IMG/VR virus record: IMGVR_UViG_3300005583_000016
Location: 1-21,047 of that record
From: a virus
Strand: one strand, 5' to 3'
Length of the DNA: 21,047 nucleotides
The number at the start of each line of letters is the position of its first letter. Position 1 is the stretch's first letter. Shown here in pieces: positions 4,045 to 12,108 of the stretch. The notes below the pieces were generated by a model. The model ran no database searches. It saw nothing but the letters and a program-made list of their open reading frames with translations, and was not told the origin of the DNA. The position numbers and the translations under genes were made by a program.

Positions 4045-4088
4045 AAAATAATGTCTGTTTTTAGACTTTAAAATAATGTCCGTTTTTA
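4045..4088 (+). repeat. 25-nt-offset direct repeat across the end of the PhyH-like gene
   Basis: Two 19-nt copies, AAAATAATGTC(T/C)GTTTTTA, at 4045-4063 and 4070-4088 differ at one base. They straddle the stop codon of the minus-strand gene, so the last codons of that gene are duplicated just beyond it in another frame. This looks like a small tandem duplication; no hairpin terminator is visible in the 66-nt gap between the convergent genes. Confidence 0.6.
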
Positions 4089-4765
4089 TAGGGCAAGGCT
4101 GTTTGTTCCGCCAACATACCAACCTTTAGAGAAGCAAAGTGCCCTATGAGGCTTTTGCGGCTAAGCGATTCATCCAGAGGCATATCACCCCTGTGGACTG
4201 TATGCCCATGCCAAAATATAACGTCACCCTTTTTTGCAGTAAACGTAACGCCTGGAGGTAATTCTTTTAATAGCTTTTCAGCAAAGTACTTATAAGCTTT
4301 TTCGCTTAAATGATTTGGATATATTTCTTTAAAATCAATATCCCATTTGTGAGATTTTGGTATAAGCTGAAATGGACCGGATCTATAATCTATGTCTTCT
4401 AGAGCTACCCAAGCCCCTATGTGATTATCGGCATGATCCTTGTCTTCATAGGTTATATCTTGGTGCCATGACTTTTTAGTAGAAATCCATCCAGTAAAAT
4501 TAAGATGCAGACCAGCTGGAGAACCAATAGCTTCTTCTATAATTTTTGGTATGTCTGACCCACAAAAAATGTCAAGTATCTCAGTGTGCTCTAGGTAGGG
4601 ATGATAGCCATCCCAACCATTGGGGTTCTTTAGAACCAATTGGCCATCTATAATTTCCCCGTGGTTTTCAATCCATAGCTTAGAATAAGCTTCTATTTGT
4701 TCTTCTGCTATAAGATTTTCCACTACAAAAAAACCTTCATCCTGCCACTGTTTTTGAAAAGTCAT
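4061..4765 (-). CDS. Phytanoyl-CoA dioxygenase (PhyH)-like 2OG-Fe(II) oxygenase
   Basis: A 234-residue protein starting MTFQKQWQDEGFFVVENLI, the typical 'F..DGF.vv...l' opening of PhyH enzymes. The metal ligands are H101 and D103 in SWHQDITY and a distal histidine, probably H191 in HGHTVHRGD. R203, in SLSRKSL, is the expected 2-oxoglutarate-binding arginine. A segment reading WVALEDIDYRSGPFQLIPKSH matches the conserved core strand 'W.al.d....nG.l..ipgSH'. Length is normal for the family. The start overlaps the upstream gene's stop by 4 nt (ATGA), so the two are translationally coupled. It is likely cytoplasmic; the substrate (small molecule, peptide or nucleotide) is unknown. Confidence 0.85.
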   Translation of the reverse strand: MTFQKQWQDEGFFVVENLIAEEQIEAYSKLWIENHGEIIDGQLVLKNPNGWDGYHPYLEHTEILDIFCGSDIPKIIEEAIGSPAGLHLNFTGWISTKKSWHQDITYEDKDHADNHIGAWVALEDIDYRSGPFQLIPKSHKWDIDFKEIYPNHLSEKAYKYFAEKLLKELPPGVTFTAKKGDVIFWHGHTVHRGDMPLDESLSRKSLIGHFASLKVGMLAEQTALPYKNGHYFKV

Positions 4766-5382
4766 AGCAATTTAGTTATCGAATAAAAAGATGGAGTGGT
4801 ATATCTTTGGCCCTTAGTTACCATCTTAACTCCGTGCAGATAATTTATATCACCAGGATGAGCGACAGCAAGACCAGGCTCTGGCTTTACTACCAGGTCA
4901 TGCTGTGGATAATAGAGCTCTCCACCTTCAAAGTCACTATTATAATAAATTAAAGAATTAATATCGTAAGTTGGAAATGGATTTGGCGAGCCATCATTTA
5001 GCTGCTTGTCGGCATGCGGTTTTTGTTCCAACCCAGGAAACCACCTAATTATTACAGGCGGTCTTACACTAAGCTGAACCTTAAACTCATCTTCAAGAAA
5101 CCACTGCATCTTAATAATGTATTTATCGATTAGGTTATAAATATCAAGATTTATTCTAGAAAGAATATCAAAACTACACTGCCTATTTTGCCAATAGGAT
5201 GCATCATAAGTACAGGTGCCATCTTCAGCATACTTATTTTCCCCAGCATCCATCCATTCATTGATTGTTGGAAGAAACTCTTGGATCTTTTTTAAGTCCT
5301 CTAGTTCAACAAAGTTTTTTATAATCTTTATATTGTCCTTGGAGCTTCCAAAATGCCCTGGTTCGATTAGTGATTTTTCCAT
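4762..5382 (-). CDS. Prolyl-4-hydroxylase-like 2OG-Fe(II) oxygenase
   Basis: A 206-residue protein with a double-stranded beta-helix core. H123 and D125 lie in KPHADKQ, followed by SLIYYNSDFEGGELYYP. Then comes PGLAVAHPGDINYLHGVKMV with distal H183, and GQRYTTPSF with R193 for 2-oxoglutarate. The order HxD, EGGEL, P.pG, HgV, G.RY is that of the P4H family (procollagen/viral prolyl-hydroxylase type). The catalytic set is complete, so it is probably active. It lies second in a minus-strand operon of three oxygenases: 15 nt downstream of the gene at 5398-5961 and overlapping the PhyH gene by 4 nt. The substrate is unknown; a prolyl residue in a phage or host protein is the family expectation. 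Confidence 0.85.
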   Translation of the reverse strand: MEKSLIEPGHFGSSKDNIKIIKNFVELEDLKKIQEFLPTINEWMDAGENKYAEDGTCTYDASYWQNRQCSFDILSRINLDIYNLIDKYIIKMQWFLEDEFKVQLSVRPPVIIRWFPGLEQKPHADKQLNDGSPNPFPTYDINSLIYYNSDFEGGELYYPQHDLVVKPEPGLAVAHPGDINYLHGVKMVTKGQRYTTPSFYSITKLL

Positions 5383-10430: not shown

Positions 10431-11296
10431 TAACGTAGAAGCAGAACATCTCGGTGGGGGTGTTGTGGTTTTTAGATCTGCATTAGATCTTGACTGGAAA
10501 TACATCTTAGAGTTTGCAAAAAATTCAATAAATAAAGAAAAAAATGAAATGTATAAACCAGCAGTTAACCCCGAAACTGGCAAAGAATGCTACATTAATA
10601 AGAGTGGTTATTTTTTTGGCAAAGACTCCATAGAAAATATGCCAGGAAGAGGGTCTTCAATCCACAGCTACGCAGATGAAAAATTTAAACAAATATTTGA
10701 TTTTATAGAAGAAGCAAAAGATGGTTATTTACTTAAGTATTTTGAGTTATTTCCATTGGCAGCAAAATGTGTTTGGTGGAAAGTTAAAGGACATATTGTT
10801 CAATACAAAGAAGGTGTTTACCTAGGCTTACACTCCGATGTCAGCGCAGACTATGTTTACGACGTTTGGACACCCGTAGATCAACTCGCAACCCGAAATA
10901 CTGTTAGTACAGTTTTTTATCTAAATGATTGTGTTGACTTACAATCTGAAATAGATGAAACAAATTTTTCTGGCGGCCATCATTATTTCAATTATCTTGA
11001 TATTAATTTTCAACCCCAAAAAGGTGATATACTATTTTTTCCATCAAACTATATGGCGGCACACGAAGTAAAACCCGTATCAAGTCGGAGAAAGATACTC
11101 TTATTTAGGATGGTATAGCCATGGAACTCCAAATGAAAAAGTTGGAGAGTCTGTAACTGATCCATTGAAAGAACTTGAAATGGCAAAAACTTCCACCAAC
11201 TTATACATGCCAACTCTAATAAATGATTACAAAAAATTTCTTAAACAAAGAGGATACTCTGAATATTCAGAGCATTTTAGAATAGTGAGCCAGTAA
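10420..11296 (+). CDS. 2OG-Fe(II) oxygenase, tandem paralogue 3; +1 shift at CGG 11086
   Basis: The restored length is 291 residues. It begins LGGGVVVFRSALDLDW (11-26) and has VWWKVKGHIVQYKEGVYLGL, with H138 and D140 in LHSD. VFYLNDCVDLQSEI, FSGGHHYF and KGDILFFPSNYMAAHEV with H215 follow. In the zero frame the product runs out after HEVKPVSS into an unrelated tail ending at 11118, losing the 2-oxoglutarate arginine. Skipping C11086 gives GERYSYLGWYSHG (R225) and 60 further residues ending at the TAA at 11294, which overlaps the next ATG (TAATG). Exact coupling to the next gene supports the shifted reading. The catalytic set is complete. Confidence 0.82.
11086..11088 (+). other. +1 frameshift site 4: TCA AGT C GGA GAA
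   Basis: In-frame CGG (11086-11088). Skipping C11086 gives SS-GERYSYL, aligned with KGVRYSYL, NGSRYAYI and DGMRVAYL of the three paralogues; the Gly is invariant. The restored frame ends at a stop coupled to the downstream start. Confidence 0.9.
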
Positions 11297-12108
11297 TGAA
11301 AATAACGGATATAGGAAGTGGACTTTGTGTGATCGAAAATCTTTTTGATATAGACCCAAAATTTACTATTGATTTTATAAATTTTTTACGCCGCATGGAG
11401 CAGGGTACTTTTACCTACGTTGAAGAAAATGGTAAAACTTACGCAGTAAATAAAACTGGTTTTAAATTTGATATAAACGAACTATCTATGGCGCCAGAAA
11501 GATTTACAAATCCCTTCTGTGATGGCCATGACGAAAAACCAACTAACGAACAAGTAAAGATGGTAGAAGAAATGGAATCTTGTGTTTACAAGGCCTTGGT
11601 GGAGTACTGTAAGATATATCCAGACGCTGCCACTGTTTGCTGGTGGAGAAGCCTAGGGCATTTTGCAACATATTCAAAAGGTCAGGGAATTGGACCTCAC
11701 TGTGATGATCAAATTCCGTATCAAGAAAGTCTTGGTATCGTAAACGAATACCCCAAGCACGCTAAGGTAAGTATAAACATATATTTAAATGATTGTGTTG
11801 ACTCAGCATCGGAATTAAATGGATACAATTTCACGGGTGGACAAATACGAATTAGGCACGCAAAGTACGAGCATAAACCAAAAATGGGAACAGCTGTTAT
11901 TTACCCAGCTAACTACGTAGGAACACACGAGGTTTTACCAGTCATAGATGGAATGAGGGTAGCATATCTTAGCTCTTTTCTTTATGGAAGTCCAGAAAAT
12001 TCTCATCCAAACGACCGCAGAATCTGGATGAAAGATCTTAAAAAAGACTCGCTTTTTCATGCGCCCGCTGCTTGGTCGGGTGCTTCCGAGACACTAGCAA
12101 CAAATTAA
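11296..12108 (+). CDS. 2OG-Fe(II) oxygenase, tandem paralogue 4
   Basis: 270 residues, uninterrupted. IGSGLCVIENLFDIDPKF opens the protein and YAVNKTGFKFD follows. Next come VCWWRSLGHFATYSKG, then GIGPHCDDQ with H135 and D137, NIYLNDCVDSASELNGYNFTG, PKMGTAVIYPANYVGTHEV with H211, and GMRVAYLSSFLYGSP with R221. It is the most compact paralogue and lacks the long C-terminal extension of paralogue 1. The start shares one base with the previous stop. It is the last gene of the oxygenase operon before the tail module. CGA (in QIRIRH) is read as arginine with no shift. Confidence 0.82.
   Translation: MKITDIGSGLCVIENLFDIDPKFTIDFINFLRRMEQGTFTYVEENGKTYAVNKTGFKFDINELSMAPERFTNPFCDGHDEKPTNEQVKMVEEMESCVYKALVEYCKIYPDAATVCWWRSLGHFATYSKGQGIGPHCDDQIPYQESLGIVNEYPKHAKVSINIYLNDCVDSASELNGYNFTGGQIRIRHAKYEHKPKMGTAVIYPANYVGTHEVLPVIDGMRVAYLSSFLYGSPENSHPNDRRIWMKDLKKDSLFHAPAAWSGASETLATN

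Follow-up and report, generated by a model that had tools for sequence, protein, structure and literature searches.

Environmental phage genomes commonly encode oxygenases dependent on 2-oxoglutarate (2OG) and Fe(II), most often with no substrate in the annotation or with nucleic acid as the supposed target. Viral prolyl 4-hydroxylases (P4Hs) are known from chloroviruses, and the substrates of the PBCV-1 enzyme vCPH are reportedly viral proline-rich repeats. In a limited literature search of titles and abstracts, we found no paper on phage Phe-Pro-Pro (FPP) repeats or on phage virion-protein hydroxylation; a multi-gene hydroxylase cassette coupled to a virion repeat in tailed phages was likewise not found in the literature searched. 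Here we analysed a complete virus record of 21,047 bases from a freshwater-type phage (IMG/VR record IMGVR_UViG_3300005583_000016; hereafter the window), in which eight 2OG-Fe(II) oxygenase genes, A to H, adjoin a gene encoding tandem (F/Y)FPP units, the FPP gene. With moderate confidence, we propose that these P4H-like enzymes, together with a DUF6065 protein and accessory proteins, form a phage-encoded hydroxylation cassette whose target is the xFPP tract of a virion appendage.

Eight oxygenases adjoining an FPP repeat gene

The window carries a myophage structural region that runs from tail fibre genes through the oxygenase cluster to a tail sheath homologue, 29-32% identical to sheaths annotated in Moorella and Bacillus phages, with more structural genes after it, which places the cluster between tail fibre and tail sheath. 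A first-pass annotation, made from the letters alone, had placed eight oxygenases in the interval 4061-12108 (three genes on the minus and five on the plus strand), each with an HxD motif, a distal His and a basic residue, Arg or Lys, for 2OG; both the profile matches and the ligand sets agree with that description. The double-stranded beta-helix domain was recovered by profiles throughout, with seven genes matching PF13640 (one below the cut-off) and one matching PhyH, and an independent six-frame search also placed PF13640 at seven sites in the window. The genes of the cluster are as follows, with E-values given after each profile.

3514-3994, plus strand: FPP gene, the proposed substrate; PASTA-like N-terminus, 18 tandem (F/Y)FPP units at 3752-3967, end QFGGASYN
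4061-4765, minus strand: oxygenase A, PhyH family; PF05721 5.7e-20, 72.9 bits against a cut-off of 22; ligands H101/D103-H191-R203
4762-5382, minus strand: oxygenase B, P4H-like; PF13640 1.1e-4 (below the curated cut-off), phrog_61 4.7e-14; H123/D125-H183-R193
5398 to about 5961, minus strand: oxygenase C; PF13640 6.5e-9; H147/D149-H208-R218
6030-6710, plus strand: oxygenase D, prolyl-hydroxylase fold; PF13640 9.7e-13; H127/D129-H180-K190
6710-7420, plus strand: DUF6065 protein, predicted beta-clip (dUTPase-like) fold; PF19541 5.6e-46, 157.4 bits against a cut-off of 26.6
7410-7706, plus strand: small conserved protein of no family; no Pfam, NCBIfam or PHROG-type profile match, homologues in 84 loci
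7699-8316, plus strand: glutathione-peroxidase (GPx) family protein; PF00255 1.9e-29
8321-9472, plus strand: oxygenase E; PF13640 1.9e-9; H168/D170-H248-R258
9512-10430, plus strand: oxygenase F, in two frames (9512-9865 and 9855-10430); PF13640 5.4e-6 on the second part; HND-H88-R98 in the numbering of that part
10420 to about 11297, plus strand: oxygenase G, with a C-terminal frameshift near 11090; PF13640 9.4e-10; H138/D140-H215-R
11296-12108, plus strand: oxygenase H; PF13640 2.7e-9; H135/D137-H211-R221

The curated PF13640 cut-off of 27 bits was passed by C, D, E, F (in its second part), G and H, and B fell below it at 23.5 bits. The basic residue for 2OG is Lys in D and Arg in the other seven; in an alignment of 50 sequences, H127, D129 and H180 of D were invariant and K190 nearly so. 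A lenient motif pattern matched 295 of 305 open reading frames (ORFs) and was not counted as evidence. The ORF of C, which has orthologues in loci L057, L063, L068, L110 and L043, opens at 6087, and its homologous start is the ATG at 5961, leaving a short divergent promoter region ahead of D. Single frameshifts that are absent from relatives break at least three window genes (3514-3994, 9512-10430 and 10420-11297). The breaks in F and G are probably sequence errors of this contig, because both genes run uninterrupted in relatives (F at L069:11166-12110, G at L069:12100-12975), and the break in the FPP gene is probably of the same kind.

From this density of oxygenases, the annotation had proposed a multi-step or multi-substrate modification pathway, an idea that is plausible but vague and that overlooked the FPP gene just outside the oxygenase interval. 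That gene lies between the tail fibre gene (1631-3514), whose stop codon overlaps its ATG at 3514, and oxygenase A; it ends at a stop at 3994 and, in this contig, shifts frame once near 3575; relatives have it in a single frame (for example, L065:3255-3683). As the best substrate candidate for the oxygenases, it makes a specific hypothesis possible.

Across 120 ORFs with at least four units (1,461 units, overlapping loci of one contig included), the variable residue x was F in 1,006 units, Y in 364, H in 78, W in 11, and T and S in one each, so that F, Y, H and W account for 1,459 of 1,461. Within the window family, the third codon positions of the repeat vary freely and synonymously, indicating that the repeat is kept as protein and not as DNA; the invariance of the first two bases of the F-P-P codons follows from how the tracts were selected, and what is informative is the variety at third positions together with the identity of x. 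FPP homologues carry PASTA-like heads (with PASTA matches below the curated cut-off in L181 and L187), Fn3 domains, or the C-terminal S74 chaperone domain of tail spikes, and the presence of S74 or Fn3 identifies FPP proteins as virion appendages. Intein/Hint-like domains, weakly matched and under the cut-offs, stand beside the tract in the C-terminal parts of the FPP proteins of L215, L202, L238 and L243, which suggests self-cleaving or self-ligating appendage proteins. At 3729-3990 of the window, the repeat keeps extended reading frames open on both strands, which can mislead gene callers.

Linkage of FPP tracts and oxygenases across phages

We scanned IMG/VR for DNA encoding three xFPP units (x = F or Y), using no information on oxygenases. 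The scan returned at least 119 viral loci, and counts out of 119 refer to the matches listed. 2OG genes were present in 87 of them (315 genes in 1,064 kb), DUF6065 in 60 and GPx in 22. In control scans, 2OG genes occurred in 0 of 120 loci found with PxPx repeats (proline-glutamate/lysine) and in 1 of 120 found with a random 14-mer, and DUF6065 in 0 of 240 over both; a control that kept the residues but scrambled their order (xPFP) had none of the three gene types (2OG, DUF6065, GPx) in any of its 120 loci. The family profiles behind these locus counts were built from relatives and from FPP loci, not from controls, a bias that a Pfam test on whole records avoids: PF13640 was present in all 24 large FPP records (1-13 copies each) versus 1 of 50 controls.

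FPP loci are not independent samples. Greedy grouping by nucleotide similarity left 2OG genes in 41 of 58 groups of the listed loci, while single-linkage grouping drew 97 of the 119 into one cluster and gave 17 clusters, nine of them with 2OG genes; we preferred the greedy groups because single linkage chained through shared sequence. Furthermore, the controls were not matched for habitat, a concern that a test of distance within records addresses. This test covered 150 of 171 2OG matches, those that were typed; 108 of the 150 lay within 12 kb of the tract, where about 43-45 were expected, a value reached by none of 10,000 permutations. At least one typed match lay within 12 kb of the tract in 21 of the 24 large records, a count reached by 3 of 10,000 permutations.

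Searches in the reverse direction, whose sets overlap with the earlier FPP sets, gave a similar association. Of 79 relatives of gene E, 46 had loci with at least 9 kb upstream; the tract was within the locus in 33 of these, and 9 of the remaining 13 had an FPP tract elsewhere in the record. Every one of the 80 DUF6065 loci nearest to the window carried 2OG genes, and 59 had an FPP tract, a share that rose to 21 of 23 for loci with at least 8 kb upstream. DUF6065 was also present in 22 of the 24 large FPP records, which bears out the grouping of this gene with the oxygenases in the first-pass annotation. The recurring gene order was tail fibre, FPP gene, oxygenase D, DUF6065, oxygenase B. In bacterial genomes, the same FPP pattern occurred in 13 stretches of the whole collection, all from metagenome-assembled genomes and three with 2OG genes; these stretches are possibly phage.

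The density of oxygenases, called unusual at first, is indeed far above chance for a phage, with PF13640 in 1 of 50 control virus records of at least 20 kb, but it is normal for this lineage: all 14 long relatives of the window carry PF13640-type copies, 2-12 each. Local duplication accounts for four of the eight genes and not for all. A showed no detectable similarity to the other seven, and B, C and D each branch on their own. The remaining four, E-H, give strong scores with one another and are old tandem duplicates, because they fall in one supported clade (28 rows, support 100/99) and each has its own orthologues in related phages. Orthologues of D and B occur in quite different phages, those of B in distant FPP phages.

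A small cysteine-rich DUF6171 (PF19668) protein was also seen near the FPP gene, at L157:4005-4247 on the minus strand and in 17 other FPP loci.

A proposed hydroxylation cassette and its alternatives

Gene D has the prolyl-hydroxylase fold. Its sequence profile matched, among structures in the PDB, the Bacillus anthracis P4H (1.4e-6), LH3, the PBCV-1 P4H (8e-4) and prolyl 3-hydroxylase 1; the profile of E-H matched PKHD-type hydroxylases and P3H1 more weakly. The AlphaFold 2 (AF2) model of D (pLDDT 90.7) has a predicted double-stranded beta-helix core of the P4H type, and VIA aligned it best with a Trichoplax PHD (Z 20.2); PHDs scored 19-20, Chlamydomonas P4H-1 (3gze) 19.7, Pseudomonas putida P4H with EF-Tu 19.7 and PBCV-1 vCPH 17.9. 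Except for the putative oxygenase 3dkq, the Foldseek and VIA top lists consisted of prolyl hydroxylases. A shared fold does not prove a substrate; the nearest solved relatives of D act on peptidyl proline.

From the enzymes, the fold of D, the repeat protein and their linkage across phages, we favour a model in which the tail module encodes an appendage, with a PASTA-like or Fn3 head and a C-terminal (F/Y/H/W)FPP tract, alongside the P4H-like hydroxylases and DUF6065. The hydroxylases would act in the cytoplasm of the host, either ahead of virion assembly or while it proceeds, turning prolines of the exposed xFPP tract into hydroxyproline, with the paralogues probably taking different unit positions or different phage proteins. 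Hydroxylation would yield a stiffer and more polar polyproline helix. The DUF6065 and GPx-like proteins may have roles in the same cassette.

In some phages, the hydroxyproline might be further decorated by sulfotransferases or by glycosyltransferases of the Skp1-hydroxyproline N-acetylglucosamine (GlcNAc) transferase family, PF11397, to which Gnt1 presumably belongs. The FPP group comprised 50 records, 42 retrieved with the FPP pattern plus eight relatives of the window; PF11397 genes were present in 8 of these 50, versus 1 of 50 controls (p ~0.015, with differing record lengths). None was among the window proteins scanned, the window being a fragment. In one relative of the window (record L102, 48774-49313), a PF11397 gene sits within the oxygenase cluster. 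The hydroxyproline of Dictyostelium Skp1 is glycosylated (PMC3515798). A sulfotransferase-like protein (L236:1974-2741, minus strand; phrog_3347, 5.9e-6) recurs in eight FPP loci. Together, these observations hint at further modification of the hydroxyls in a minority of phages. The only control with 2OG genes, record L407 (124,540 bases), carries two PF13640 and three PF11397 genes at 11-35 kb and no FPP pattern, with one PF13640/PF11397 pair about 0.3 kb apart.

Several observations weigh against hydroxylation of the tract. No 2OG gene appeared in the scanned stretch of 32 of the 119 listed FPP loci, and 3 of the 24 large FPP records had no typed 2OG match within 12 kb of the tract; the FPP proteins that lack nearby 2OG genes are long and have short tracts. 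The L407 control, with oxygenase and PF11397 genes and no FPP pattern, indicates that 2OG genes can have other roles. Oxygenase A, the PhyH member, has relatives in just six loci and need not act on the tract. Among the oxygenases, the fold evidence covers D, and the PF11397 enrichment is weak. A chlorovirus review cites a communication that no hydroxyproline was detected in PBCV-1 particles, even though the virus has a P4H (PMC7019647). Finally, the number of paralogues makes more than one substrate likely, and collagen-like repeats, present in 14 of the 119 listed loci, are a possible alternative substrate there.

These last two points also speak for the alternative that survives best, although we consider it unlikely: that the oxygenases act on other tail-module virion proteins, such as collagen-like or Fn3 fibres, at Lys, Asn or Asp, with the FPP tract a co-carried neighbour. 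The presence of prolyl 3-hydroxylase and lysyl hydroxylases among the profile matches of D, and of up to 13 paralogues in a phage, would fit such substrates. However, the window has no collagen-like repeat, such a repeat occurs in just 6 of the 87 listed FPP loci with 2OG genes, and the FPP link survives controls and groupings. It is improbable that the enzymes serve auxiliary metabolism of host small molecules or lipids. The PhyH and GPx families would suit that role, but it gives no reason for the association with a structural repeat gene or for the conserved place in the tail module, and these two families are sparse, with GPx in the 22 listed FPP loci and PhyH relatives in the six loci given above. 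Least probable is modification of nucleic acid or a part in DNA repair, an assignment to nucleic acid modification having been made for a freshwater pelagimyophage 2OGFeDO protein in one study (PMC7029224) and compatible with the 2OG gene found among replication genes in P-SSM5, but at odds with the position between tail fibre and tail sheath, the prolyl-hydroxylase fold of D, and the virion repeat protein and DUF6065 as partners; no TET/JBP or AlkB family was among Pfam matches to an E-value of 1, where a missing match does not exclude membership.

If the FPP tract is the substrate, as we propose, a large group of phage 2OG oxygenases would gain a concrete and testable protein target, DUF6065 would gain a context, and phage adsorption would depend on oxygen and iron. 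It would also be, to our knowledge, the first instance in which a virion protein of a tailed phage has its prolines hydroxylated in a programmed way. We tentatively extend the proposal to an undescribed and widespread class of uncultured phages with an adhesive resembling mussel glue, an aromatic-proline appendage hydroxylated at several positions and sometimes glycosylated or sulfated. Up to a dozen 2OG oxygenases, with DUF6065, might then produce 3-, 4- or di-hydroxyproline and perhaps modify the aromatic residue too, and host levels of O2, Fe(II) and 2-oxoglutarate would set virion stickiness. The xFPP pattern also offers a simple DNA marker by which further phages of this kind can be sought.

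Neighbouring genes and described relatives

Two genes of the tail module precede the FPP gene.

752-1558, plus strand: glycosyltransferase-like protein of the tail module; phrog_1574 (unknown function) 2.7e-40
1631-3514, plus strand: tail fibre protein, directly upstream of the FPP gene; phrog_454 (tail fiber) 1.1e-45

The glycosyltransferase label was read from the sequence, with no profile behind it, and the protein gave no Pfam or NCBIfam match above cut-off. Beyond the tail sheath, the gene at 17501-18196 has as its best PHROG match phrog_9206, a major head protein family (5.9e-53), yet sits after the sheath.

The AF2 model of the DUF6065 protein (pLDDT 94.7) aligned with dUTPases at a VIA Z of about 10, and a sequence search of solved structures gave nothing convincing. 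We do not propose dUTPase activity for it, and a role as a trimeric scaffold is only a guess. The DUF6065 sequences from 58 FPP-found proteins fell into 31 groups at 70% identity and seven at 50%, and two queries of a collection of cultured phages gave no match. A recurrent protein of about 250 residues (phrog_7084; for example, L234:669-1424, minus strand; 31 proteins in 29 FPP loci) was also noted; its relationship to DUF6065 is distant (hhalign probability 94.9, E 4.5e-8), and many phages consequently have two such proteins.

Among described systems, the cyanophage 2OG-Fe(II) oxygenases (phrog_61, phrog_81) belong to the same superfamily, and 184 phage records, mostly cyanophages, matched D. 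Unlike the enzymes described here, those among the matches listed have 23-34% identity to D, and the two records examined, S-SKS1 and P-SSM5, have no FPP pattern. The bacterial P4H/PPHD enzymes that act on EF-Tu (4iw3, 5v7y) have the prolyl hydroxylase fold (4iw3, Z 19.7) but modify a housekeeping protein, whereas the enzymes here lie in a tail module with a repeat candidate. In the Skp1 PhyA-Gnt1 pathway of Dictyostelium and Toxoplasma, a P4H is followed by a hydroxyproline GlcNAc transferase, an order of steps to which the PF11397 genes of the eight FPP-group records would correspond; the substrate is, however, unrelated, the scanned window proteins include no PF11397 member, and the likeness concerns a minority of FPP phages. 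The P4Hs of algal and plant cell walls are secretory enzymes. Their representative Chlamydomonas P4H-1 (3gze, 2jig) has the same fold (Z 19.7) and a repeat substrate of the polyproline type, represented in 3gze by (Ser-Pro)5, but is eukaryotic, whereas the present enzymes are phage-encoded and adjoin aromatic FPP repeats. PBCV-1 vCPH is likewise a virus-encoded P4H, and D matches its structure (5c5t, Z 17.9; sequence profile E 8e-4); at the level of genes only, the likeness extends to a repeat candidate encoded by the same virus, here with 18 (F/Y)FPP units. Unlike this eukaryotic-virus enzyme, the system described here comprises eight oxygenases adjoining one repeat gene, accompanied by DUF6065, in tailed phages.

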